A stretch of DNA of 64,000 bases from the NCBI RefSeq assembly GCF_004339595.1, contig NZ_SMFU01000008.1:620001-684000 (forward strand). The letters are read 5' to 3'. This DNA is from Marinobacterium mangrovicola. GTDB taxonomy: Bacteria; Pseudomonadota; Gammaproteobacteria; Pseudomonadales; Balneatricaceae. Made by a program: the position numbers and the translations under genes. How positions within the stretch are numbered: the first letter of the stretch is position 1; every line of letters starts with the position of its first letter. This document shows positions 37,270-52,515 of the stretch, piece after piece. The notes under the pieces were generated by a model that worked only from the letters and a program-made list of their open reading frames with translations, ran no database searches and was not told where the DNA came from.

Positions 37270-39648
37270 ATGAAATTCAGTGAACACTGGTTGCGCGAAC
37301 TGGTGCAGCCCGAAATTGATACCCAGACACTGGTCGATCAGCTCAGCCTGTCGGGACTGGAAGTCGACGAAGTCGAGCCGGTCGCCGGACAGTTCAGCGG
37401 CGTTGTCGTTGGCGAGATCATCAGTGCTGAACAGCACCCCAACGCCGACAAACTGCGTGTTTGTCAGGTGTCTGACGGTAGCGAAGAGTTCCAGATCGTC
37501 TGTGGCGCGCCCAATGCCCGTGCCGGCATCCGTGTGCCTTTCGCCAAGGTAGGCGCCGTCCTGCCGGGCGACTTCAAGATCAAGAAAGCCAAACTGCGTC
37601 AGGTTGAGTCCTTCGGCATGCTGTGCGCCGAAGACGAACTGGGCCTGTCCGACGACCACGCAGGTCTGATGGAGCTGGCGGCCGATGCGCCGGTTGGCAC
37701 CGATATCCGTGAATACCTGAAGCTCGATGACCAGATCATCGATGTGGATCTGACCCCGAACCGCGGTGACTGCCTGAGCCTGGTAGGCATGGCGCGTGAA
37801 GTGGGCGTGCTCAACAAGGTACCGGTTGCGGAAGTGGACTGCGCTGCCGTAGCGCCGCAGATCGACGACCAGGTGGAAGCCAAGCTGCTGGCCGCAAACG
37901 GCTGCCCGCGTTATCTGGCTCGCGTGATCCGCAATATCAACCCGGGTGTTGAAACCCCGCTGTGGATGCAGGAAAAGCTGCGCCGCTCCGGTGTACGTAC
38001 CATCGATCCGGTGGTTGATGTCACCAACTACGTACTGCTCGAGCTGGGCCAGCCGATGCACGCGTTCGACCTGAACAAGCTCGAAGGCGGTATCCAGGTG
38101 CGCATGGCGGAGCAGGACGAAGAGCTGACTTTGCTCGACGGCCAGGAGATCAAACTCAACGCCGATACCCTGGTCATCGCCGACCAGTCGAAAGCGGTGG
38201 CGATGGCGGGCATCATGGGTGGCGAACCCACCTCCGTGACCGGCGAAACCACCGATATCCTGCTGGAAAGCGCCTTCTTCGCGCCGCTGGCGATCGCCGG
38301 CCGTGCCCGCAGCTACGGTCTGCACACCGACTCCTCACACCGCTTTGAGCGCGGTGTGGACTGGCAGCAGCAGCGTCGCGCCATCGAGCGTGCTACCGCG
38401 CTGCTGCTCGATATCGTTGGCGGTGAAGCCGGTCCTGTGACCGAAGCAGTCTCCGAAACCGATCTGCCGGAAGCGGCTCAGGTGACCCTGCGTCACGATC
38501 GTGTCACCTCCATGCTGGCGCTGGAAATTCCGGCGGAAGAGATCGTCGAGATCCTGACCCGTCTGGGTCTGTCGCTGGAAGTCAGCGGTGATCGTCAGTG
38601 GCAGGTCAGCGTACCGAGCTACCGTTTCGACATCAGCCTCGAAGTGGACCTGATCGAAGAGATCGCCCGTGTCTACGGTTACAACAATCTGCCGTCACGC
38701 ACGCCGCTGGCAGAGCTGCCGATTGCGCCGAAGTCTGAAGCGCTGGTATTGCAGGGCCGCGTTCGCAGCCACCTGATCAGCCTGGGCTACCAGGAAGCGA
38801 TCACCTACAGCTTTATCGAAAAAGGCCTGTCTGCTCAGTTTGATGATCAGCACGAGCCGATGGCGCTGGCCAACCCGATCTCTGCCGAAATGGCGGTGAT
38901 GCGCACCAGCCTCTGGCCGGGTCTGGCCAAGGCGCTGCAGTACAACCAGCATCGTCAGCAGCCGCGTGTGCGTCTGTTTGAGATCGGTCAGCGTTTTGTG
39001 CCGGGTGACGAAGGTCTGCAGCAGCAGAACGTGGTCGCCGGTATCATCTGTGGCTCGCGTCAGCCGGAAGGCTGGAACGGCGGCAGCGACAAGGTGGACT
39101 TCTTCGACCTGAAGGGCGATGTGGAGTCTCTGCTGGGTCTGGGCAGCTGTGCCGATCAGTTCAGCTTCGCTGCAGAACCCCATGTGGCGCTGCATCCGGG
39201 CCAGAGTGCCGCTATCCTGCGTGGCGGAAAAACCGTTGGTCGTATCGGTGCGCTGCACCCGAGCCTGCAGAAGTCTCTGGACCTGACCGGCCCCGTCTTC
39301 CTGTTCGAAATCGAGCTGGATGCGGTGATCGAAGGGCAGGTGTCACGCTTCAGTGAACTGTCCAAGTTCCCTGAATCCCGTCGCGATCTGGCGGTGCTGA
39401 TGAACGTGGAAACTCACTTTGCGCAACTGCGTGAAGTGGTTGTCGCCGAGGCCGGAGAGTACCTCAAACAAGTGACTCTGTTTGACGTCTATCAGGGCCA
39501 AGGTATTGAACCGGGACGAAAAAGTCTGGCACTGGGCTTGACCTGGCAACATCCATCACGCACTCTTACTGATGAAGAAATAAACAGCGCAGTGAGTGCT
39601 GTGGTTTCCGCTCTGGGCACAAAGCTGGGAGCGGTCCTAAGAGATTAA
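37270..39648 (+). CDS. pheT: Phenylalanyl-tRNA synthetase β subunit
   Basis: The β subunit, 792 residues, the usual length. Domains: the N-terminal tRNA-binding (OB) domain (about 40-150, [26 protein letters not shown]), the B3/B4 editing module with [15 protein letters not shown] and the downstream [12 protein letters not shown]5 and the inactive synthetase-like core, and the C-terminal FDX-ACB domain ([13 protein letters not shown]). It edits tyrosylated tRNA-Phe in trans of its catalytic partner PheS. Confidence 0.98.
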
Positions 39649-39662
39649 GACAGGATGGTGTC

Positions 39663-39974
39663 ATGAGCTCTTTGACAAAAGCGGATATGGCGGAGCGTCT
39701 GTTCGAAGAACTGGGCCTCAATAAACGTGAAGCTAAAGACATGGTTGAATCTTTCTTTGAAGAGATTCGGGCGAGTCTGGCGTCAAATGAGCATGTGAAG
39801 CTTTCGGGTTTCGGCAACTTCGACCTGCGCGACAAGCGTCAGCGTCCGGGCCGAAATCCGAAGACTGGAGAGGAGGTCCCGATCTCGGCACGCCGGGTCG
39901 TGACCTTCCGTCCAGGACAAAAACTCAAGGAACGTGTAGAAGCCTATGCCGGACAACAGTCCGACTCAGAATGA
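39663..39974 (+). CDS. ihfA: Integration host factor α subunit
   Basis: A 103-residue nucleoid protein. The DNABII signature is clear ([45 protein letters not shown]), with the intercalating Pro in RPGRNPKTG. It dimerises with IhfB and bends DNA. It follows pheT by 14 bases, as in most gammaproteobacteria, and overlaps the next gene by 29 bases. Confidence 0.98.
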
Positions 39975-40308
39975 GCTGGAGCCCATCCCCGGCAAACGCT
40001 ATTTCACCATCGGCGAAGCGGCTAAACTCTGTGATCTCAAGCCCCATGTACTGCGTTACTGGGAGCAGGAGTTCGATCAGATTCAGCCGGTCAAGCGCAG
40101 TAACCGACGCTACTACCAGCGTCAGGATCTGCTGCTGATCCGCCAGATTCGCAGCCTTCTCTACGATCAGGGTTTTACCATTGGCGGCGCCCGCCAGTGG
40201 CTCAAGGGCGATAACGCCAGCGACGATACCAAGCAGTACCGTCAGCTGCTCAAACAGACCATTTCCGAGCTTGAAGATATTCGCGATCTGTTAAAAACAG
40301 TGCGATAA
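39946..40308 (+). CDS. MerR-family transcriptional regulator (ihfA-linked)
   Basis: A 120-residue MerR-type protein. The HTH reads [67 protein letters not shown], followed by a short helical tail (about 85-118) without metal-binding cysteines. It overlaps ihfA by 29 bases, an arrangement conserved in Pseudomonas and relatives, where the gene is annotated only as a MerR-like regulator. No effector is suggested by the sequence. Confidence 0.9.
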
Positions 40309-40381
40309 AAAAGCTTCACATTATCAAACCCTTAATGTAATATGCGCATCTCAAATCGGGACCTAAGGGTCTCCGCCTAGT

Positions 40382-40458
40382 CGGGGCGTAGCGCAGTCTG
40401 GTAGCGCACTTGCATGGGGTGCAAGGGGTCGAGTGTTCAAATCACTCCGTCCCGACCA
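40382..40458 (+). tRNA. tRNA-Pro (anticodon GGG)
   Basis: A 77-base cloverleaf with encoded CCA. The acceptor arm CGGGGCG pairs with CGTCCCG (one G-T), the D-arm region contains GCGCAGTCTGGTAGCGC, the anticodon loop ATGGGGT gives GGG, and the T-loop GTTCAAATC is standard. Its 3' end is the left border of the AT-richer defense island, as often for tRNA integration sites. Confidence 0.95.
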
Positions 40459-40601
40459 TTTTAATCAAAGACTTATTCAAGTCTTGCTTCACAATTACCT
40501 TCTTTTATTTCATCTTGTCCGGTATCTGTCCGGAAACCGCCGCGAAGGGTGTATACCTGTCTGGAAAGGTTCATTGCTTCGGTGTTATGACCGAGTGGTC
40601 A

Positions 40602-41009
40602 CTAGCCTGCTAAAACAGGTTTCGTGGTTCTAGCTCCTGCTGATGCTCCGCCTCGAGAGCTTCCAAACCTTCTTCTGGTTCGAGCATTAGAGGGTTGCGT
40701 TCCGCCTGCTGCCGTGTGGCAGTACACCGGGTACCCGGCCGCTTTTAGGTCGTCCCTCTTTTGCCACAACCGTTCCTGAAGAACGTATGCCAACGGTTCG
40801 GTGAGTTCTAGGGTTTGTAGCCGTGACCACATTGTCGGGCTGCCGTTCTCCCATGTATCTAGTATCTGCTGGTGAAGGACTTGGTTGTGCATTACCTCCT
40901 CGTCCTCCAATAGTTGCTGGTGTTCCTTCTTTATCTGAGAGTCCCAGGCTAGAGTTTGTTCATCCATCGTTGCCGCCGCGATTGTTTGCGTATTCGGGTA
41001 CTGTAGCAT
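40602..41009 (-). CDS. Hypothetical protein at the island left end
   Basis: An open frame of 135 codons with a plausible ATG at 41009. The first 100 residues look protein-like (WDSQIKKEHQQLLEDEEVMHNQVLHQQILDTW is an acidic helical stretch) and the last 30 are low-complexity Ser/Arg/Gly. The frame stays open 17 codons further upstream, where residues such as SYLTEQDLEAM also look coding, so this may be the tail of a decayed gene. No family was recognised, and no good ribosome binding site is seen. Confidence 0.35.
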   Translation of the reverse strand: MLQYPNTQTIAAATMDEQTLAWDSQIKKEHQQLLEDEEVMHNQVLHQQILDTWENGSPTMWSRLQTLELTEPLAYVLQERLWQKRDDLKAAGYPVYCHTAAGGTQPSNARTRRRFGSSRGGASAGARTTKPVLAG

Positions 41010-41602
41010 TGCTTCTAGATCTTGCTCAGTGAGGTAGCTCCAGATAGTCCCGGCAGTTTGTTAGGAAACGGTGACCACTACACATGGTTCTGCGGTCTTG
41101 TTTGCGTGTTTTTTTGGGGAGTCAAGAAACTGTCCTAGTCTCGCCCTTATATGGGCCCTATCGCACTGTTAGTCTGTCGCTATCATGCCGTAATTTGCTG
41201 TTCAGAATGGCCCTTATCTGGCCCTAATTCACCTTTTTATAGGCCCAAGAAACGGCTCCTTGTCGGTTGCTTCCCTCGCGTATTGATGTCCGAAAAACCT
41301 TGCCTAATCCTTGCTTCTGGTCGCTGTTCCAGCTCTAACAATGGCGGGTTCAGCAGGGCTGGATGTTTACAAATGTTGACATTGGGCCGGTGTCTGTACG
41401 GTTAATCTACGCGAGCTAATCCCTACGTTCCTATTTCTAATTCGCCGAGGTGGCCGGAAGCGTCGCAGCGCGGTTAGTAGTGAGTCCTGTCAGGTTCTCG
41501 TAGGGAGATACTATGTCAGTTCGTATTAGTTCGCCTTTTCTTTGTTGAGGCGAACTAATGGCGTGTGGTCTTATGATTTCAAGCAACCGAGGAGACCATC
41601 AC
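41010..41602. other. Gene-poor stretch with short repeats upstream of the XRE gene
   Basis: 593 bp with no convincing gene. Two related 17-mers, CCCTTATATGGGCCCTA (41144-41160) and CCCTTATCTGGCCCTAA (41211-41227), lie 67 bp apart, with a weaker third, CTTTTTATAGGCCCA (41232-41246). Their role is unknown. The right end holds the perfect inverted repeat 41525-41559 before the XRE gene. Confidence 0.4.
41525..41559. promoter_or_regulatory. Perfect 11-bp inverted repeat upstream of the XRE regulator
   Basis: ATTAGTTCGCC (41525-41535) and GGCGAACTAAT (41549-41559) are exact complements with a 13-base spacer. No T-tract follows, and the repeat ends 43 bases before the XRE start, so an operator for that regulator is more likely than a terminator. 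Confidence 0.6.
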
Positions 41603-42655
41603 ATGCCTGCTACTTATGTACTTAAGCCTGAAATTATCAAGCACCTGCGAAAACAGCGGAAGCTCAAGCAATTGGTTGTAGCGAATTCTATAGGGATAAC
41701 AGAGCGCGGTTACCAGAAGGTCGAGAAGACCGGCCGCACTACACCCGGGAACGCAGAAAAATTGGCCCAAGTGTTCGACACCTCTTTAGCTTTTTTGAAA
41801 GGGGATCAAGAACTACCGCTCTATAGTTCCTACTGGTTTTATACATCCAAAGATGAGCGCCAAAACAAAGCGGGTCGAATTCTTTATGGTGACAGAGAGG
41901 TGTGCGGTGAGGTCGATAGCTTGTCATCACAAATCGCCCCTTATTTCCCATCAGAAAAAAATGAGATCAGTGTTTCTCTTAGCAAGGATGATCAAGGTTA
42001 CTTTTTATCAGTGACAGGGGGCCGTTCAGGCGAGTTCTGGATGCGTTGGCGACGTGTGGAGCTGGATTTAGATCGTGGCTTAGTGTGGACCTATGAGAGC
42101 GAGTGGGAAGCTGGCTTCATGCAGAGAGCAATTGATGATCTGCTTTTTAATGTTAGTACTCGCTATATACGCTACGGGGACTCAATGCCACCAGCCGGAA
42201 TGAAGGAGGTCTTTTGTGTCGATGTGATAACCAAGGAGTTCCTTGGTAAGGGGCAAGGAATTTTGGAGAAACATATTGGATGGAAGAGCTTTGATGAGGA
42301 ATCATCAGTAACCAACTTCATCATAAAATTCGTAAACGAATTCAATCCGAGTGGTTACGAAATCAAAGATGATTTTCTTAGGACTGAAAGAGGCTGCGTA
42401 CTAATCTCACTAACACCTTTCTTGAGTCTGCGAGATCCGTCTATTCCATTTATACCTGGAACCATCCTCCAAATCAGGCGAAGTTGGGTTAACGAAGAGG
42501 GGGGTATCAAAGGTTGTGCCCCTTGGCACCGAAGGTCGATCGAATGCTTAAAGCAGCAGATAAGGGAGGGGTGCGAGCAAGATAGGGGGCAGGGAGCGCG
42601 CTCTCGCATGCCCGAACTGCCGTTAGAACCAGGTCTCGGGGAGATCCTGCAATAG
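41603..42655 (+). CDS. XRE-family HTH protein with long C-terminal domain
   Basis: A 350-residue protein. The N-terminus (about 8-65) is a Cro/C1-type HTH (IIKHLRKQRKLKQLVVANSIGITERGYQKVEKTGRTTPGNAEKLAQVFDTSL). The remaining 280 residues match no family I recognise; they are rich in aromatic residues and β-like, with segments such as SGEFWMRWRRVELDLDRGLVWTYESEW. GAGGAG lies eight bases before the ATG at 41603, preferred over earlier in-frame ATGs. It precedes the HEPN-like gene by 59 bases on the same strand. It may be a regulator with a sensory domain for the defense island. Confidence 0.7.
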   Translation: MPATYVLKPEIIKHLRKQRKLKQLVVANSIGITERGYQKVEKTGRTTPGNAEKLAQVFDTSLAFLKGDQELPLYSSYWFYTSKDERQNKAGRILYGDREVCGEVDSLSSQIAPYFPSEKNEISVSLSKDDQGYFLSVTGGRSGEFWMRWRRVELDLDRGLVWTYESEWEAGFMQRAIDDLLFNVSTRYIRYGDSMPPAGMKEVFCVDVITKEFLGKGQGILEKHIGWKSFDEESSVTNFIIKFVNEFNPSGYEIKDDFLRTERGCVLISLTPFLSLRDPSIPFIPGTILQIRRSWVNEEGGIKGCAPWHRRSIECLKQQIREGCEQDRGQGARSRMPELPLEPGLGEILQ

Positions 42656-42714
42656 CAAGATTGACCCCGGTAATTTGTAAGGACATCGATATCTGCTCAT
42701 AGAGAATAGAGCCC

Positions 42715-43590
42715 ATGACTGATCATCTAACGGTAACCAAACAAACAACTCTCGAAGAGGCCACCCGGAAGTCCAGCGAGGGGATACGGAATGCGCTCAA
42801 AACGAAGAACTATGAGTCTGTATGCCTGCAAGTCGGCAAGTACATTGAGAATCTAATTGGCCGTCTTAGCTGTTCATCTATAGGGAGGGGATCTGTAGCG
42901 GCTAGACTCGATGTGGCGCTTTCGAACAAGGAGATGAAGCCTCTGCTAGCGTATAACCTAAAGGCAGCGTGGGAGTTGCGGCACCTGGCAGCGCACAATA
43001 GCTCTTGGATTTTTAGGCGAGAAAATGCTCTCACTTCTATAGTCGCGTTCAACGGTGCGATACGCTGGTTTTTCGGTCCCTATCAAGCTCGACAGCAAAC
43101 CAAAGGACTTTTCGATATACCGAATCAAAAAATGGAAGACTCAAGGTATAACGGTATGGTTGTTTTCAATAAGAAGCCATTGGAGCTTCAGGACGTTGTA
43201 GACAGCTCTACGGCTCAACAGTATTTCAACGAATCTTTCGGTAGTCGAAGGTTTCTGGTGGACTTGGCTGGATGCTTTTCCTATCTGCTGGAGTCAAAAG
43301 GATTTTTGAATGAAAGCGATACAACCGTTGGAGACTTCAAGGTAGCGGCAAGAAATTTTTTGAAAGCAAAAGGCCTAAAACCTGAAGAAAATATTTCGTT
43401 CAGATCGATCTGTATTTACTACAAATATCGTGGCAGGAAGACCTCTATCAACTCTCCTGTTAGTCCAAATACCCTTAAAGATATACTTTGGTTTTTGAAT
43501 CTTGAAACCAAAGCGCTGGTAGAGGATTTCCAATCTCTACTCGACCCGCCAGACAAGGAGTTTATCCATCGAGTCTGTATAAATGTCTAG
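42715..43590 (+). CDS. HEPN-like protein (RHxxxH motif), unknown
   Basis: A 291-residue protein of no named family. The N-terminal half is helical and contains LRHLAAHNSSW at about residues 91-101; Arg-x4-His is the active-site pattern of HEPN ribonucleases, and the surrounding helices (KTKNYESVCLQVGKYIENLIGRL before, IVAFNGAIRWFF after) suit that fold. The C-terminal half (about 150-291) is unassigned. It probably shares a transcript with the XRE gene. HEPN domains are frequent in toxin and abortive-infection proteins, which fits the neighbours, but the motif alone is weak evidence. Non-catalytic DUF4145-like proteins look similar. Confidence 0.5.
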   Translation: MTDHLTVTKQTTLEEATRKSSEGIRNALKTKNYESVCLQVGKYIENLIGRLSCSSIGRGSVAARLDVALSNKEMKPLLAYNLKAAWELRHLAAHNSSWIFRRENALTSIVAFNGAIRWFFGPYQARQQTKGLFDIPNQKMEDSRYNGMVVFNKKPLELQDVVDSSTAQQYFNESFGSRRFLVDLAGCFSYLLESKGFLNESDTTVGDFKVAARNFLKAKGLKPEENISFRSICIYYKYRGRKTSINSPVSPNTLKDILWFLNLETKALVEDFQSLLDPPDKEFIHRVCINV

Positions 43591-43720
43591 TTCGGGGGTA
43601 GGACCCGCGTTTGAAGTGTCGTTCTTATTACCGGGGCGAGGTGTCACCATCAGCCCCTTTAACTGTTTGAAATTATCGGTTCAATAGCTCATAGAGTCAC
43701 ATAGCCACTAGAGATGAAGG

Positions 43721-44731
43721 TTATTCCGCCGGCCAGTAGACTTTAACCAGGGGTAGCAACCGTTGTCCCTCAATATCGAACTTCTCATAGTTTGCTACCA
43801 CCAGATCAGCCAATAGGTCGATGTCGATCAGGGTCACAGGAATGGTGGCCCGCTCGGCTTCATAGCGGGCTTCTCGGGTGAAGCCGCCGGTGCTGATAAA
43901 CAATCCCCGGTCACCTTCGCGCAGGGCCCCGATAAAACTGCGGATCGGATTAGAGCCCATACTGCCGTTGCGGTGTTTCACTTCGGCCTTGATACGGGGC
44001 TCGGTAAGGCCAAGGCCATCTGGTGAAGCCAAGACGTCTACACCGCGATCCGGGCCTCTTGCGGAAACCCGTGTTTGGTAACCCATGGCACGGAGGAGGG
44101 CAGCGGTGAGTTCTTCCATTTCTTCCGGATCTAGGGCCTGGATTTTGTCCTTGATAAGTTCATGGCCACGGGAGACAACTTCCTCGCGAAGTAGCTCGAA
44201 CTCTGCCTCTACTGTCGGTATGTCGTCTGTAAGCGAAGGTGTCTGAGCGGGCTTTCCTGCTAATCTGTCCTGTACCTCATCGATCACAGTCCCCGAGAGT
44301 GAAAAGACCGTCAGAACCGAGCCCATGCTGTTACGGGTGGATTGGGTGAAAAGGTCTCTGGATACTCGGCCGAGCCACTTCACTTTACGAATGTGTTGGA
44401 ACTCGCCTACCTGCTCTGTTTCTGGTCGGAACTCATACTGCCCCAAGTCTTCGCCTACAAGATATTCCCTGTGTTCCTGGCTATAGGTGATGAGCAGGTC
44501 GCCCTGTTGGATGTCATCGCGGAACTTACGAATCATGGCAATCGCATTTGCGGTGCGTCCCGGTTTAGCATTACCGAAGTATTCCACGTAGGCATCCCGC
44601 AGCGCTTCATTGCTGGTGTACTGGCGAAGATCGCCCAGATTATTCCAGCCTATAGCAACGCAGTTTGCTTCCTTGAAGTCGTTGAAATAGCGTCCGCCGT
44701 TGCCGGCACGAATCATCCAACCGTGTTTCAT
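43721..44731 (-). CDS. Mrr-type restriction endonuclease
   Basis: A 336-residue protein. The N-terminal part (about 1-110) has GWMIRAGNGGRYFNDFKEANCVAIGWNNLGDL and reads as an EVE/PUA-like domain of the sort that recognises modified bases. A linker leads to an Mrr catalytic domain (about 205-330): LLRAMGYQTRVSARGPDRGVDVLAS, then EPRIKAEVKHR, giving the PD-(D/E)xK pattern with Asp in the DRGVDVL strand and Glu-x-Lys in AEVKH. No methyltransferase lies next to it, so it may be a modification-dependent (type IV) enzyme. The ATG at 44731 was preferred over a GTG two codons upstream. Confidence 0.8.
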   Translation of the reverse strand: MKHGWMIRAGNGGRYFNDFKEANCVAIGWNNLGDLRQYTSNEALRDAYVEYFGNAKPGRTANAIAMIRKFRDDIQQGDLLITYSQEHREYLVGEDLGQYEFRPETEQVGEFQHIRKVKWLGRVSRDLFTQSTRNSMGSVLTVFSLSGTVIDEVQDRLAGKPAQTPSLTDDIPTVEAEFELLREEVVSRGHELIKDKIQALDPEEMEELTAALLRAMGYQTRVSARGPDRGVDVLASPDGLGLTEPRIKAEVKHRNGSMGSNPIRSFIGALREGDRGLFISTGGFTREARYEAERATIPVTLIDIDLLADLVVANYEKFDIEGQRLLPLVKVYWPAE

Positions 44732-44922
44732 ATACACTCCATTTCGCTCAGTCCTTGTGCTTGATTGCAGATGGTTCGAGCCTCATTGCGTGTTAGCAGT
44801 ATGCCCCGGGGTTTAAACATTTCCAGTCGCTGAGGGAAGGGCTTATATGGCCTGCTATAAACCATTAGCTCAGGACTCCTCATGCTATGAATTCAGTCGA
44901 CGGGCACGGTACAGTGATGTAT

Positions 44923-47900
44923 TCAAACACCTGCGGGGGCAGATTTCTGTTTGATGCCTGATTGCATACTTGCCCCAACACCATCGCGTCGGAAATCAAA
45001 CATATTCATTCTGAACGTGTTGATTGTTACTTGGTCGTTTCCGCTTGAGTGGGAGATTAGACGCTCGTGCCGCTTGTCATAGGGAGCCATGGCATAGGAG
45101 CCGCCGTATTCGCCTGTATTCACCAGCACCACGTGCTGGTACATGTGGTAGTGAAGTGCCTCTACCATTGAGTCAAAAGTGTTAACGTCGCGGTTTAGGG
45201 CAGGTATTAAGAGCGCATTGGACTTGTCACGAAGGTCCGCGCTCAGTGCTATGTCTGTAGAATCGAAACAAATAGCTGCGCTTAGACAGAATCCTTTTTC
45301 ATTTGGAAAGGCTGGGTGGGCAAGTTCCAATATTAACTGATACGGACGCCAAGGCTGGATTCCCAACTTAACCTCCGGGGCTGTCATATGGTGCTTACCC
45401 TGAAAACGTTGGATCTCGTTGTTGTTGCCGTTGTGTTTTCTAGGAACAATCCAAACAGCACAGTTTTTAGGTTGTTTAGAGCCTGGCTGCTTTATGAATC
45501 CAAGCCCTGCCACAATGATGGCATGGGTCTTTCTGGATAAGTGAATCAGGATATCCATATCATCTTGGTGAACCGCTAATTCTGGTAGTACGATGAGGTC
45601 AATGTTTTGCTCCCGCTCGCCGTTGGTCGGCTTATCGAGGTGCTGAGCTTCGATATGTTTGGTTACCAGTTTTGCGACACGTGCTATGTGGCGTCGGTGT
45701 TTGGTCCGGTATTCAGGATCATCAAGGAATTGACCATGTTCAGCAAAGTCCTGTTGCCTAGGCATCTTGGCTTGGACCATGGCGACCACTAGATCTTTTT
45801 TGGACTTGTCCCAACTGGGTGAAACCAATTCAGGCAGACCAGGCATACTGGATTGTATGCAATAAGCGTCTTTAAGCTCGTTCAGCCGTTTATCAACCAG
45901 CTTACTAACACTTTCTACAGAAAGCTCGATCGGCCAAGAGTAACCTTGATCATTGACACGGATACCTGGCCATTTGAGAAGCTTGGAGAGGAGCGTAGTA
46001 AGCCAGCCTGAGAACTGAGCAGCCTCACCTGCTAATGCTTCAGGTGTTGTCAGTAAGCCGATCTGTCTTTTGAACTGAGTTGTCTTTAGGCCGCGGTAGC
46101 CAGTCTTGGGAGCGACGCTTGTCCCAAAACCTGTCGGGTCACCTAAGCCTGATAGCACTGCTCGCACACACAGCGCGATACGTTGAAGAATGAAGGTGTC
46201 GTCTTGCTGGGAGTGGAGGTGACCAGCAGCCTCTGACAGAGCTTTGTTGAACTCAAGGTTTATTGAAACTTCAGCATCGAACACATTGAAAGAGGGGGAG
46301 GCTGATAATTTATCAAACTTTACTTTTGTCTTTGCCAAATCGATGACTTCGTCTTTTTTACTCGTATCAAAAGAGGCACTTTTTCGTAGCAGAGACCTCA
46401 TTAGCTTCAATGCCATTATTTCATTGCCGAACGGATTGTCTGGCCTTGCTACAAGCTTATAAAGGGAAATGTAAGAAGTAATATCTTCCAGTTTTTTGGC
46501 TGAAGGTCTTGTATTTATGTAGAGCTTTTCAATTAACGCTTGGACTTTTTCTGAGTCAAGCCAGGAATACTTTAATGCCCGAGCATGGAGTACGAGTGAA
46601 CGAAGAAGAGTCGCATCCTGAATAGCTATAAGCTCAAGTATCTTTGGGGGATTTTTATGATCATCAAGAAGGCTTGATGCTGCGCGTAGAAGCGGCTTGA
46701 TATCCTCAATAATCTGACTGGAAATCACTATAGCTGTCGCTATATCCCGGTCGGTAGCATCCTTGTCTAGGCTTATCTTCCTGAATCCATTTGCGAGTTT
46801 GAAAATAAGGTCATGGAACCAGCATCCTGAGCTGCCTTCCAACGTTGTGTCCATTCTCACAAGTAACAGGAAGCGTGCTTGCGCCGCAAGAAAGTTGAAG
46901 CCTTCTGGTTTAGCATTTTCTGGCGACGATGAAGCTGTTTCTTCGATAGAGCTAATACGTTCCTCAAAGGCTGTTTCGTCGATAGCATTAGACTGCAGAA
47001 GTTCGAAGAATTGATCTATATCGGCATGAGCCGGAACAGCCTGGCGGTCTTTACGGTGAATAACGGTTGCGGCATGCCGATAGATTTCAGCGAGGCAGTA
47101 GGTACCAATTGCAGCTTGAGTTTGTGACTGCTTTGACACGATGTGGCGCCACGGACTAAATGGTATCTCTCTGAGATACTGAAGTTGCTCTAGTATTGGC
47201 TCGAGCAACTTGGTACTTGGGAATAACTCGATCCCTTTTTTTAGGAGTAGCACCAGGGCAGGGTCTCGACTCCAGCATGCTATGAGTCTTCGGGCTAGCC
47301 TCTCTTGAAGATAATCCCAATCTCCTGGAATGGGTTTACCATTCTCATCGGTTTTTCGGGATGTAAAGTGTCGCATGCTATTTAAAAGCTTTGATATTTT
47401 ATTCGCAGCAAAGCGTTTCAATGTATCCTCGCGGACATCGAACATATCCTTCTCTATTGCCGCAAGCCGGTTGTAGTATCCATGACCATCGGACTGATTT
47501 TGTTCCTTGCTTTTAGATAGAGCAAGCAACGATTCCAATTGGTCAAGATGAACTTCGGTGTCATCATAAGATATTGGGCCAGAAACGCTGTTTTGAATAT
47601 CTTCAAGGGTTTGGGAAATTCCAACAGACTTTCCTCTGAAAACTTCAACCTTGGTCTTGTTAGGGTTAGATTCCAGATTTAGTTCATCGAGTAGAGGGAT
47701 TGTGATATCGAGTAATGCATTCTTTATTATCTCCAAGTATGTCTTTGAACTCTTTGACTTCCCAAGTTTTTCTTCTATCTTGTTTCGATTAGGACCTACG
47801 AGAACAAAACGCATATCATCGACATAGCGACAGTAATCAACTAGTCTAATGTCATGGTGTTCACAAATAATATGACCTATTTTTTCCTTCATCCGGTCAT

Positions 47901-48876
47901 CAAAATCTGACATGTAAATGTTAGCTAGAAAACCAGATGCGACTAATCCTTGAGGTAGTCCAAAAGGTGCTTTTGGGCACTTCTCTGAAGAACAAATCTG
48001 TTTGAATTTTTCATTGGAATCAACGGACCATTCCCAGTCTTTAAATGCTGTGAATATGTTTTTTCTGACTTCGGTTTTTTGAATTAAGTTGCCTTCTTGC
48101 TTTTGAGAAAATTGCGCAATTTTTTTCACAAGAAGTGGCCGCTTTATACAGTCAAAAAATTGAGAAATATCGAGTTCTACTAGATATACCTCTTCCTCAT
48201 CAGATTTATCTTGTATCTCATTTTTGGCAAAGTAATATGGCCTTTCCAAGAATTTTCGGTAGTCCGTGAAAAATTTACTATAGGTGGTTGTTGCGCCATA
48301 GCTGTGTTCAGCTTCGTCGTCTTTATATCTGCAATAGAGCCTATTTCCGTAGCTAACGATTCCTTTTTTATGTACTTCATCGTAGCTAGTTGACGGGTCA
48401 CCCTGTTTGCTTTCGACCTCGTTGGCAAGGCACATCATTACGAGTGTCATGATTGTCTGCTCGCGTATGCTTATATGGGCGAGGGGCCGTAATTTGAGAG
48501 GGCTATCTTCTACTGAGTGATCGTCATCAGGATCTAGGTTTTGAAAATTTAGGTTTTCGGGCTGCCAGGTTAGCCTGTATTCAGATAACTGCAGGGGATC
48601 ATTATCCTGCTTCACAAACTCCCAAGGATGAGACTTAGGCGCCGGTACGAGTTCGAGTGGTGTAAAAGTGAGCTCATCTTTAACTTCTTTAGCCCACTCA
48701 TCACAGCGATTAGCCAAATCAATGGATGACGTATCGAGTTCGAAGTGATCAGCATACCAGTTGGTTGTGCGGATATACTCGTGTGCCTTCTTCCAGGCGA
48801 GTGCAAAGAGTAGAGGATCGGTCAAGTAATCATCATTTAATGCGAGCTTTTCGTACTTTTTGTCTAATACAGGCAT
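44923..48876 (-). CDS. Defense-associated reverse transcriptase-nitrilase fusion (DRT type 1 / UG1 class)
   Basis: A 1317-residue single protein. Residues about 130-415 form a reverse-transcriptase palm: Asp236 in VELDISQFFD, the PQG loop (308-310) in FGLPQGLVASGFLANIY, and the catalytic YVDD box at 351-354. The middle 600 residues are helical and unassigned. The C-terminal 250 residues are a nitrilase-superfamily domain with the full triad: Glu1099 (VLPELAV), Lys1161 (FQGKHHM) and Cys1203 (AAICFDS). This RT plus C-terminal nitrilase layout is that of the UG1/DRT type 1 anti-phage systems. Both active sites are intact. AAGGAC precedes the ATG. No intron or retron RNA was recognised nearby. 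Confidence 0.88.
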   Translation of the reverse strand: MPVLDKKYEKLALNDDYLTDPLLFALAWKKAHEYIRTTNWYADHFELDTSSIDLANRCDEWAKEVKDELTFTPLELVPAPKSHPWEFVKQDNDPLQLSEYRLTWQPENLNFQNLDPDDDHSVEDSPLKLRPLAHISIREQTIMTLVMMCLANEVESKQGDPSTSYDEVHKKGIVSYGNRLYCRYKDDEAEHSYGATTTYSKFFTDYRKFLERPYYFAKNEIQDKSDEEEVYLVELDISQFFDCIKRPLLVKKIAQFSQKQEGNLIQKTEVRKNIFTAFKDWEWSVDSNEKFKQICSSEKCPKAPFGLPQGLVASGFLANIYMSDFDDRMKEKIGHIICEHHDIRLVDYCRYVDDMRFVLVGPNRNKIEEKLGKSKSSKTYLEIIKNALLDITIPLLDELNLESNPNKTKVEVFRGKSVGISQTLEDIQNSVSGPISYDDTEVHLDQLESLLALSKSKEQNQSDGHGYYNRLAAIEKDMFDVREDTLKRFAANKISKLLNSMRHFTSRKTDENGKPIPGDWDYLQERLARRLIACWSRDPALVLLLKKGIELFPSTKLLEPILEQLQYLREIPFSPWRHIVSKQSQTQAAIGTYCLAEIYRHAATVIHRKDRQAVPAHADIDQFFELLQSNAIDETAFEERISSIEETASSSPENAKPEGFNFLAAQARFLLLVRMDTTLEGSSGCWFHDLIFKLANGFRKISLDKDATDRDIATAIVISSQIIEDIKPLLRAASSLLDDHKNPPKILELIAIQDATLLRSLVLHARALKYSWLDSEKVQALIEKLYINTRPSAKKLEDITSYISLYKLVARPDNPFGNEIMALKLMRSLLRKSASFDTSKKDEVIDLAKTKVKFDKLSASPSFNVFDAEVSINLEFNKALSEAAGHLHSQQDDTFILQRIALCVRAVLSGLGDPTGFGTSVAPKTGYRGLKTTQFKRQIGLLTTPEALAGEAAQFSGWLTTLLSKLLKWPGIRVNDQGYSWPIELSVESVSKLVDKRLNELKDAYCIQSSMPGLPELVSPSWDKSKKDLVVAMVQAKMPRQQDFAEHGQFLDDPEYRTKHRRHIARVAKLVTKHIEAQHLDKPTNGEREQNIDLIVLPELAVHQDDMDILIHLSRKTHAIIVAGLGFIKQPGSKQPKNCAVWIVPRKHNGNNNEIQRFQGKHHMTAPEVKLGIQPWRPYQLILELAHPAFPNEKGFCLSAAICFDSTDIALSADLRDKSNALLIPALNRDVNTFDSMVEALHYHMYQHVVLVNTGEYGGSYAMAPYDKRHERLISHSSGNDQVTINTFRMNMFDFRRDGVGASMQSGIKQKSAPAGV

Positions 48877-49073
48877 TGCGTTGTCCTTAACTAATCGCTT
48901 TTTCCACTATTACTTCAGCCAAATGGCATCGGGTCTCGCATAGGGGTATCTCACCAGCGCTCAGGGTATCCCAATGGAGTCAGTTTCTGAAGCTTAGCTA
49001 ATTAGCCTGTTATGGTTAGCGGGAGGGTAGTTTACTGGTGGCTGTTTGAAGTCTCCGGGTCGGGACTAATGCT

Positions 49074-49304
49074 TCAGCCAGACGTTTGGTCAGTCGTCAC
49101 TATTTTCCGAGTGTAGTGAACCTCAGTTACCCGCCCGGCTTCTTCGTTGTAGGTGTCCAGATGTTTAGCGCTCCTGTCCCGCTTCGCGCATGATTTGATC
49201 ACTTCTCTTGTCGCCGAAACCAGCGACCAGCATTTATTCCCATACTCTGAAGTTCGTGCACGATAGATAGCAGCTATCTTCTCAGGTACTGTTGCATACA
49301 CCAT
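49074..49304 (-). CDS. Possible small hypothetical protein
   Basis: A 76-codon frame starting MVYATVPEKIAAIYRARTSEYGNK. The composition is protein-like, but there is no clear ribosome binding site and no recognised family. It may be a remnant at the island border. Confidence 0.2.
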   Translation of the reverse strand: MVYATVPEKIAAIYRARTSEYGNKCWSLVSATREVIKSCAKRDRSAKHLDTYNEEAGRVTEVHYTRKIVTTDQTSG

Positions 49305-49347
49305 TTAATAGCCATTCAATCCGTGCTGTTATTTTCATGCCCATTCC

Positions 49348-49378
49348 TTGACCTTCCAATCGTGGGAAGGTTTATAGT
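49348..49378 (+). promoter_or_regulatory. CueR-type copA promoter with 19-bp spacer
   Basis: -35 TTGACC (49348-49353) and -10 TATAGT (49373-49378) are separated by 19 bp, the over-long spacer typical of MerR-family promoters. The spacer holds the dyad ACCTTCC-N7-GGAAGGT (49351-49371), the CueR binding pattern. Confidence 0.92.
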
Positions 49379-49416
49379 TGCCAGTATCAATATGGAATGT
49401 TTCTAGGAGGCAGCTG

Positions 49417-51900
49417 ATGAACACCCAGTTAAAACCGAATCAGTCGCCCGCGTCATCGATAAGTCTGCCCGTCGAGGGCATGAGTTGTGCCTCATGCGTG
49501 GGGCGCGTGGAAGCGGCACTGAAAAAGGTCGATAACGTTGAAGAGGTCGCGGTAAACCTGGCGACCGAGCGTGCCGATATACGCTCCAGCAAGCCGCTGG
49601 ATCGCCAGTCACTGGTTGAGGCGGTGGAGAAAGCGGGCTACTCGGTACCGGCAACGACCACCGAGCTTGCTATCGAGGGGATGAGCTGTGCGTCCTGCGT
49701 CGGCCGGGTCGAGCGCGCGCTGCAGGCGGTGCCAGGCGTTGTGGAAGCCAACGTGAACCTGGCGACGGAAAAGGCCAGCATACGCGGTAATTCCAGTGTC
49801 GATACGCTGATCGCTGCGGTGGCTGATGCCGGTTATGAGGCCAGCGAGATCGATCAGGGCGGTGCCGTTGCCGATGACAGCAGCGAGAAAAAAGATGCCG
49901 AGCTGGCGGGGCTGAAACGAGATCTGACCATTGCGGCGCTGCTCTCCCTGCCGGTGTTCCTGATAGAGATGGGCTCACACCTGATTCCCGGCGTGCATAG
50001 CCTGGTGGCTAACACCATCGGCATGCAGATGAGCTGGTACATCCAGTTTGTGCTGGCCACGCTGACGCTGTTCGGGCCGGGCCTGCGCTTCTTCAAAAAA
50101 GGCGTGCCTGCGCTTCTGCGTGCGGCGCCGGATATGAACTCCCTGGTGGTGCTCGGTACCTCGGCGGCCTGGGGATATTCCGTTATCGCGACCTTCTTCT
50201 CCGGCGTGCTGCCTGAAGGCACGGCTAACGTTTATTACGAGGCCGCTGCGGTCATCGTAACCCTGATCCTGCTCGGCCGTTTCTTTGAAGCCCGGGCGAA
50301 AGGGCGTACCTCCCAGGCGATCAAACGCCTGGTGGGTCTGCAGGCAAAGACCGCCCGCGTGCACCGTGATGGCAAGACTGTTGAGATCGGTATTGGTGAG
50401 GTTCAGCCGGGGGATACCGTTGAGGTACGTCCCGGTGAGCGTATACCGGTGGACGGCGAGGTGATCGAAGGCGACAGCTATGTCGACGAGTCGATGATCA
50501 CCGGTGAGCCGGTGCCGGTATCCAAAAGCAGCGGCAGCCCGGTGGTGGGCGGTACCGTCAACCAGAAGGGTGCGCTGACGTTCAAAGCCACGGCTGTGGG
50601 CGGCACCACTGTTCTGGCGCAGATCATCCGTATGGTGGAGGAAGCGCAGGGTTCCAAGCTGCCGATCCAGGGTATGGTGGACAAGGTGACCATGTGGTTT
50701 GTGCCCGCGGTAATGACAGCGGCGCTGCTAACCTTCCTGGTCTGGTTCTTCGCGGGGCCAGAGCCAGCACTGAGCCTGGCGTTGGTCAACGCGGTGGCGG
50801 TACTGATCATCGCCTGCCCCTGCGCCATGGGGCTGGCAACACCCACATCGATCATGGTTGGCACCGGACGTGGCGCCGAGATGGGCGTGCTGTTCCGTAA
50901 GGGTGAGGCGCTCCAGCTGTTGCGGGACGCGAAAGTCGTCGCGGTCGACAAGACCGGTACGCTGACCGAAGGCAAGCCGGCACTGACCGATCTGCAGGTC
51001 GCCGAAGGGTTTGAGCGCAGCGATATCCTGGCGAAAATTGCCGCGGTGGAATCCCGCTCTGAGCACCCCATCGGGCGTGCCATCGCTGAGGCGGCAGAAG
51101 CGGAAGGTCTCAGTATTCCTGCTACCGAGAGCTTTGAGTCTGTCACCGGTTTTGGTGTCAGGGCTCAGGCGGAAGGCGTGTCCGTGGATATCGGTGCCGA
51201 CCGCTATATGAGCAAACTCGGTCTGGATGTGGACCTCTTTGCTGAAGAGGCGGCACGTCTGGGGGATGAGGGTAAATCTCCGCTTTATGCCGCGATTAAT
51301 GGAAAACTGGCGGCGATCATCGCCGTATCGGACCCGATCAAGGAATCCACTCCCGATGCGATTGCAGCACTGCATTCACTGGGGCTCAAGGTCGCGATGA
51401 TTACCGGTGATAACCGCCGCACCGCCGAGGCGATCGCCCGGCAGCTGGGTATCGATGATGTGGTTGCCGAGGTGTTGCCGGAAGGTAAGGTTGAGGCGGT
51501 GAAAAAACTCAAGTCCGAGCACGGCAAACTGGCCTTTGTGGGTGATGGCATCAACGATGCGCCGGCCCTGGCGGAAGCCGATGTGGGTATGGCGATCGGC
51601 ACAGGCACCGATATCGCCATCGAAGCGGCGGATGTGGTGCTGATGTCCGGTAGCCTGGGCGGTATTCCCAGTGCGATCGCGCTGTCACAGGAGACCATCC
51701 GCAATATCAAGCAGAACCTGTTCTGGGCATTCGCCTACAACACGGCGCTGATTCCGCTGGCGGCAGGGGTGCTCTATCCGGCCTTTGGTCTGCTGCTGTC
51801 ACCGATCTTTGCGGCGGGCGCCATGGCGCTCTCTTCGGTCTTTGTGCTGACCAATGCGCTCAGGTTGCGCCGCTTCAAGGCGCCGGTGCAGGCAGCCTGA
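49417..51900 (+). CDS. copA: Copper-exporting P1B-type ATPase CopA
   Basis: A Cu(I) efflux ATPase of 827 residues. Two N-terminal HMA domains each have GMSCASC (21-27 and 88-94), followed by eight membrane helices. The transport motif CPC is in [15 protein letters not shown], the phosphorylation site in [11 protein letters not shown], the actuator motif in [17 protein letters not shown], and the hinge in [17 protein letters not shown]. The ATG at 49417 follows AGGAGG; an in-frame start further upstream overlaps the promoter and was rejected. It is expressed from a CueR promoter and followed by cueR after 47 bases. Confidence 0.96.
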
Positions 51901-51947
51901 GCGCAAAACGGCTTTAACCGAACGCATTGGAAAAGAGAGCGGTGACT

Positions 51948-52484
51948 ATGAATATTGGTAAAGCGGCAGAGGCCTCGGGCGTTTCGGCGAAGATGATTCG
52001 CTACTACGAGTCGATCGGGCTGATCCCTGAGGTGTCCCGCACCGAAGCCGGCTACCGGGACTACTCCGATAAAGATGTGCACCGGCTGCGCTTCATCCGT
52101 CGCGCCCGCGATCTCGGCTTTTCGGTGGATCAGATGGCGGAGCTGCTGGCGCTTTGGCAGGACAGAGGCCGGGCCAGTGCCGATGTGAAACGGATTGCGC
52201 TGGAGCATGTGGCTGAGCTGGAACGCAAGGCGCGCGAGCTGATGGAGATGAGCCAGACTCTCGCGCACCTGGCCGGCAACTGCCACGGCGATGATCGACC
52301 GGATTGCCCGATCATCAATGTGCTGTCTGAGCAGGATGGTTGTGAGGACGGTTGTAAGGACAGGGAGCCCGATGCGGCCGGGCATTGCGGAGGGAAGGCT
52401 GATCAGAGCCATGAACATGCGCAACCGCGTTTTGGTAAAACCGGTATTGAACCGGATCGAAAACGGCGGCACGGGTCGGACTGA
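51948..52484 (+). CDS. cueR: Copper-responsive MerR regulator CueR with extended tail
   Basis: A MerR-family Cu(I) sensor. The HTH (MNIGKAAEASGVSAKMIRYYESIGLIPEVSRTEAGYRDY) leads to the dimer helix and the metal site Cys112-x7-Cys120, the same numbering as E. coli CueR. It is 178 residues, about 40 longer than usual: after the metal loop comes a tail with Cys132, Cys136, His146, Cys147, His155 and His157. The tail may bind metal or may be an accident of a lost stop. The start at 51948 fits the family N-terminus. It lies just downstream of copA. Confidence 0.9.
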   Translation: MNIGKAAEASGVSAKMIRYYESIGLIPEVSRTEAGYRDYSDKDVHRLRFIRRARDLGFSVDQMAELLALWQDRGRASADVKRIALEHVAELERKARELMEMSQTLAHLAGNCHGDDRPDCPIINVLSEQDGCEDGCKDREPDAAGHCGGKADQSHEHAQPRFGKTGIEPDRKRRHGSD

Positions 52485-52515
52485 TCTCTGCTCGCAGTAG
52501 AGCGCCAGGAACAAG

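Follow-up and report, generated by a model that had tools for sequence, protein, structure and literature searches.

Defense-associated reverse transcriptase 1 (DRT1) has been solved for one protein, that of structure 9YFD (Neville et al. 2026; PMC13275509), and that article reports a template-free, protein-primed synthesis of DNA on residue S402 and the stacking of DRT1 tetramers into dormant filaments. Defence by this protein requires the reverse transcriptase (RT) aspartates D324/D325, the nitrilase cysteine C1116 and the C-terminal residues K1219 and A1223; the S402A substitution abolishes immunity, K1219A and A1223F impair defence, and T4 Dda is required, yet insufficient, for activation. 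No partner is needed for defence by the 9YFD protein, and drt1b is absent from most DRT1 operons (PMC13275509). The stretch of Marinobacterium mangrovicola DNA considered here (64,000 nt of contig NZ_SMFU01000008.1, positions 620,001 to 684,000; hereafter the window) carries on its minus strand a gene of this family. The reading preferred here, with a probability of roughly 0.85, is that it codes for a DRT1 antiphage protein that most likely acts as the 9YFD protein does and that probably left an array of type I restriction (hsd), DRT1, Abi_2 and Mrr genes.

The gene is an intact open reading frame (ORF) with an ATG start and 1317 codons for amino acids (aa), as the first-pass annotation of the window had read it, and the assignment to the DRT1 (UG1) class proposed there is confirmed at the level of sequence, where profile scores, conserved residues and the similarity to the DRT1 of known structure agree. 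Specifically, the PADLOC Drt1a profile PDLC03745 spans residues 10-1317 of the window protein with 1387 bits (E=0), ahead of a second Drt1a profile (558 bits), RTasNitrilase (414 bits) and UG5-nitrilase (164 bits). Among solved structures, phmmer at E<=0.001 retrieves only one sequence, 9YFD (7.5e-145), and a profile built from a 19-sequence alignment (A1, in which L043 stops at a contig end, without the C-terminus, and L035 starts late) covers residues 1-1227 of the 1229 of 9YFD at 1318 bits; structures of DRT2, retron and group II RTs come next, all below 42 bits. The window protein is a typical DRT1, and the value of the locus is in a candidate priming serine found in a far branch of the family and in an hsd-linked history, the latter being correlative. 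The G+C content of the ORF, 44% versus 56% in the window, is as for an acquired gene.

In the RT half, Pfam RVT_1 matches residues 225-411 (E=6.4e-12), and the palm motifs named in the first-pass annotation, D236, PQG 308-310 and YVDD 351-354, all stand at the residues given there, with D236, D353, D354 and PQG invariant in the 19 rows of A1. A second alignment, which joins residues 1-1119 of 9YFD to 22 DRT1 proteins longer than 1150 aa (23 rows), sets D324/D325 of 9YFD opposite D353/D354, two columns that are invariant in every row. In the same alignment, the priming residue S402 stands opposite S432 of the window protein, with a serine in 23/23 rows, and this is the only invariant serine column within the unresolved linker 382-478 of 9YFD. 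At E<=0.5, Rfam matches only the tRNA between 40300 and 49500, so that no RNA partner was found, which is in keeping with a template-free synthesis.

In the C-terminal half, the first-pass annotation had recognised a nitrilase triad of E1099, K1161 and C1203, and these residues hold, with no exception among the 19 rows of A1; one more residue of the nitrilase type, E1168, is likewise invariant there, and the site is therefore better described as a tetrad. The catalytic cysteine C1116 of 9YFD aligns with C1203, and all 23 rows have a cysteine there. The nitrilase assignment rests on the match to 9YFD, on PADLOC RTasNitrilase and on the amidases retrieved by Foldseek with an AlphaFold2 model of residues 118-1317, computed from 14 sequences (mean predicted local distance difference test score, pLDDT, 71.6; predicted template modelling score 0.58). 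The C-terminus of the model is alpha/beta and resembles the nitrilase-superfamily amidases 6ypa, 2plq and 1j31 (template modelling scores by target of 0.63, 0.49 and 0.64), so that a nitrilase-like fold is predicted where the first-pass annotation had placed it. Foldseek also matches AbiK, UG15, DRT6 and DRT4, and 9YFD is not among the best 50 matches listed from a structure library that ends on 2026-04-08. Beyond the catalytic residues, K1311, P1314 and A1315 are conserved in at least 90% of the 19 rows of A1, and two of these, K1311 and A1315, map to the lid residues K1219 and A1223 of 9YFD when the ends of L027 and L048 are used as the bridge. The middle region of the window protein is mostly helical in the model, and its counterpart in 9YFD is an alpha-helical repeat domain that, like the RT, lies at the periphery of the filament (PMC13275509); the earlier guess that these 600 residues hold a phage sensor finds no support.

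Both halves of the protein are presumably active, the catalytic residues tested in 9YFD having counterparts here, and by homology with the 9YFD protein we infer the DNA synthesis, the assembly, the trigger and the killing as follows. The RT domain would add short semirandom DNA, without a template, to its own serine, here S432; the DNA-tagged protein would assemble via its nitrilase domains, and the C-terminal tail from K1311 to A1315 would close the nitrilase site. Phage infection would then free the nitrilase, which would damage an essential metabolite and thereby abort the infection.

In a tree of 23 DRT1 rows, from which L001, L028, L058, L069 and L070 (shorter than 1150 aa) were left out, the window protein groups with L057 (support 100/99) within a branch of 10 rows (100/100), and 9YFD falls, together with L048 and L027, in a separate 8-row branch (100/100). 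The nearest relative, at 93% identity in its best segment, is the DRT1 of Marinobacterium alkalitolerans AK62 (L001). A simple Nei-Gojobori count puts the ratio of nonsynonymous to synonymous change (dN/dS) between the two genes at 0.168 overall, and at 0.065 when only the nitrilase part is counted; a stop at residue 644 interrupts the frame of L001, which comes from a draft assembly, and the selective constraint therefore acted at least before that break. With the Drt1a threshold at E<=1e-60 and the window's own genome counted each time, matches are present in 5 of 116 family genomes, 13/390 order, 8/398 phylum and 1/369 class-draw genomes, and none in the 7 other genomes of the genus. Outside the window, its own genome holds a second, weak RT match (G000:C2:530966-531361, 4e-8 to Drt1a) within a 556-aa open frame. 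The phage records contain no DRT1 match, and IMG/VR has none for the window protein; with A1, IMG/VR yields 4 loci, three of them nearly full-length and used here and one, L049, a short RT match that was not used. A plasmid copy from Sphingopyxis (L028, 3977-7907) codes for 797 aa without the nitrilase half and is closely followed by an IS256-type element.

The surroundings of the gene hold traces of a larger array. An hsdS-like tail upstream is recovered by tblastn with the hsdS of L070 (2.9e-5 against a 624-nt target, 12/18 residues identical), and its spacing to the DRT1 start equals that of L001, L066 and L070. Downstream, the head of an Abi_2 gene is recovered with a query from L001 that is itself Abi_2 at 1.3e-51; this is the best match in the whole 64-kb window (48% over 29 aa, E=1.2e-4). 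The Mrr-type nuclease that follows is 86.5% identical to the Mrr of L001, where the gene order is hsdM, hsdS, DRT1, Abi_2, Mrr. Like L001, the window has DRT1 and then Mrr, with the Abi_2 head between; unlike the window, L001 has a broken DRT1, hsdM and hsdS still upstream, and an Abi_2 open frame of 326 aa. Because of the hsdS-like tail on one side and the Abi_2 head on the other, the window copy looks as if it were cut out of an hsd-DRT1-Abi_2-Mrr array, to which it probably once belonged and from which it now stands apart, without hsd and Abi_2. A four-sequence hidden Markov model (HMM) of drt1b finds no match for the window. The two loci show opposite decay, an intact DRT1 with only the Abi_2 head (window 44738-44922) and a broken DRT1 with a 326-aa Abi_2.

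Features of the window DRT1 locus (positions in the window; domain edges are approximate)
Feature	Position	Strand	Evidence
DRT1 gene (Drt1a, UG1, class 3 DRT): RT, alpha-helical middle and nitrilase, 1317 aa	44923..48876	-	PADLOC, phmmer, profile A1
RT region, residues 118-420 (D236, D353, D354, PQG 308-310)	47617..48525	-	invariant in 19/19 rows; RVT_1
Codon of the candidate protein-priming residue S432 (opposite S402 of 9YFD)	47581..47583	-	Ser in 23/23 rows, with one gap placement
Middle region, residues ~421-1030, mostly alpha-helical	45787..47616	-	AlphaFold2 model; profile match to 9YFD
Nitrilase domain, residues ~1031-1317 (E1099, K1161, E1168, C1203; lid K1311 and A1315)	44926..45786	-	tetrad invariant in 19/19 rows; Foldseek amidases
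hsdS 3'-end remnant, reads ETRCHLAEVIVEKAIS*, stop 10 nt before DRT1 ATG	48887..48937	-	tblastn with L070 hsdS
Abi_2 (PF07751) remnant, first 29 codons	44779..44865	-	tblastn with L001 Abi_2 protein
Mrr-type nuclease (PADLOC candidate PDC-S02)	43721..44731	-	PDLC04819 E=5e-90; Mrr_cat 2e-24
Variable segment carrying DRT1, tRNA-Pro end to upstream region of copper-ATPase-like gene	40462..49233	.	flanks match G003

The link to type I restriction extends to other DRT1 loci. The comparison covers 27 distinct loci, the window included, five of which (L001, L028, L058, L069, L070) lack a full-length open DRT1; L068 (the same sequence as L001), a second Sphingopyxis record, the short-contig fragments G482, G872 and G921 and the weak plasmid matches H7-H10 were dropped. 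At 11 of the 27 loci, the 1.5 kb on either side of DRT1 contain type I restriction genes, or fragments of these that reach 40 aa or more: hsdS genes in L001, L002, L057, L059, L066, L067 and L070, an hsdR behind DRT1 in L047 and fragments in L054, L056 and L063, the window's own hsdS tail being too short for this test. Among 18 other RT loci, with flanks taken from the whole gene, the same distance yields a single case (hsdM beside L087), and L093 joins it, with hsdS and hsdM, once the flanks are widened to about 5 kb each as far as the contigs reach. Complete flanks on both sides are available for 14/18 control and 26/27 DRT1 loci, and the controls may miss distant versions because the hsd, Abi_2 and NucS HMMs were built from DRT1 neighbours. 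The difference of 11/27 versus 1/18 remains, but on loci that are related by descent, not an even sample, and with HMMs of that origin. In L001 (3001-6916), L057, L066, L067 and L070, hsdS either stops 10 or 18 nt ahead of the start of DRT1 or runs into it (DRT1 is broken in L001 and L070). Moreover, a drt1b-like gene follows DRT1 at 6/27 loci (L002, L024, L025, L027, L046, L048), Abi_2 lies within 5 kb at 4/27 (L001, L054, L056, L066) and a NucS-like nuclease at 3/27 (L054, L057, L062). One locus, L002 (1002-7316), has both an hsdS upstream and a drt1b-like gene downstream of DRT1.

Mapped onto the tree, the label "hsd or fragment", which includes the window and, on weak evidence, L025, needs 8 changes, and "hsd gene" alone needs 6 changes for 6 rows, a value as low in 500/500 shuffles; since this is no fewer than in the shuffles, the hsd genes are not the mark of one clade. 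The scattered label is in favour of gain or loss on several occasions, and by the same token a fixed partnership is not shown. A search of titles and of the starts of abstracts found no account of an hsd-DRT1 link, which the UG/Abi paper of Mestre et al. may describe, and a word search of PMC13275509 returns "hsd" 0 times.

These neighbourhoods bear on two other explanations of the window copy. If the DRT1 proteins of its branch need a partner gene, be it a type I restriction-modification system, Drt1b, Abi_2 or a nuclease, the partnerless window copy would be silent or idle, and the hsd excess (11/27 DRT1 loci against 1/18 other RT loci within 1.5 kb), the drt1b-like genes at 6/27 loci, the mere scraps of hsdS and Abi_2 retained in the window and the stop at residue 644 in the draft of its nearest relative all point that way. 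Conversely, the 9YFD protein defends without a partner and drt1b is missing from most DRT1 operons (PMC13275509), and the window ORF is intact with a low dN/dS against L001, though much of this signal may predate the loss of the partner; on balance, a dependence of this kind is unlikely. A related idea takes the repeated hsdS-DRT1 junctions at face value: DRT1 in this branch would have evolved as a second line of defence built into type I restriction-modification, co-translated with hsdS and triggered once the restriction enzyme has been defeated or engaged by a phage, and the window copy would be a stand-alone escapee of such an operon. The anticodon nuclease PrrC, which guards its type I enzyme, offers a likeness. 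We regard this as quite a long shot. The junctions provide a testable idea on the trigger of DRT1.

It is scarcely credible that the protein belongs with the RT-nitrilases of a different UG group, UG5-nitrilase for example, or that it is a retron or group II RT that became fused by chance. The PADLOC RT_UG5-nitrilase profile resembles the window protein in joining RT and nitrilase and does match the nitrilase part, but with 164 bits versus the 1387 bits that Drt1a reaches end to end, and profile A1 covers the whole length of 9YFD. The first-pass annotation had named a best match to group II intron or retron RTs as what would count against DRT1; the NCBIfam models for these reach 45 of 300 and 44.4 of 235 bits, far under their curated cut-offs, and the profile scores already refute this whole group of candidates.

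The DRT1 gene lies in a variable segment whose left edge coincides with the end of a tRNA-Pro (40458). Genome G003, from the same genus, aligns with the window at 39572-40461 (98%) and 49234-52495 (93%), and between these flanks it has, instead of 40462-49233, 4.1 kb (L081, 13918-18011) with genes that we read as racemase-like, permease-like and GntR-like; the same site thus holds defence-type genes in the window and a metabolic set in G003. No convincing pair of att-like repeats was found at the segment ends among 20 of 22 direct families, and no integrase among the Pfam matches of the four scanned segment proteins other than DRT1. An XRE-type regulator (41558-42655, plus strand; HTH_3) is followed by a 291-aa protein (42715-43590, plus strand) that matches nothing in Pfam, PADLOC or NCBIfam at the thresholds applied, and the two are possibly a two-gene defence or toxin-antitoxin unit.

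Several observations weigh against the preferred reading, that of a DRT1 acting as 9YFD does. The pairing of S402 with S432 depends on the placing of a two-residue gap before the serine, present in 20/23 rows (the exceptions are 9YFD, L027 and L048); HMMER with profile A1 and MAFFT via L027 set S402 opposite P434, and phmmer sets it opposite I435. Pfam PF00795 (CN_hydrolase), which the first-pass annotation had proposed as a check of the nitrilase, has no match in the window protein at E<=0.01, and the mean pLDDT of the AlphaFold2 model is only 71.6. The hsd genes upstream of DRT1 are gone, and a consensus scan of the minus strand finds no promoter-like site just upstream, its sites being no more numerous than in shuffles. 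Lastly, the deep branch of the window protein differs from that of 9YFD, and the same filament is not guaranteed, because the residues that join tetramers in 9YFD are not conserved.

Set beside the 9YFD protein, the window protein has the same domain order and counterparts of the RT aspartates, the nitrilase cysteine, the lid lysine and alanine and, as a candidate, the priming serine. Unlike it, the window protein is 88 residues longer, belongs to a different deep branch and is about 29% identical to L027, a row of the 9YFD branch, and its inter-tetramer filament contacts are not conserved by identity, with E333 replaced by P362 and most contact columns variable. Since the priming and nitrilase residues are conserved and the filament contacts are not, the chemistry of priming and of the nitrilase looks general across DRT1, and the form of assembly may differ. 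DRT1 features defined by experiment, namely the nitrilase residues, the lid and, as a candidate, the priming serine, can now be followed into a branch that is distant from the one protein of solved structure. Which 9YFD features are conserved there, and which are not, indicates how much of the published mechanism is likely to hold for DRT1 in general.

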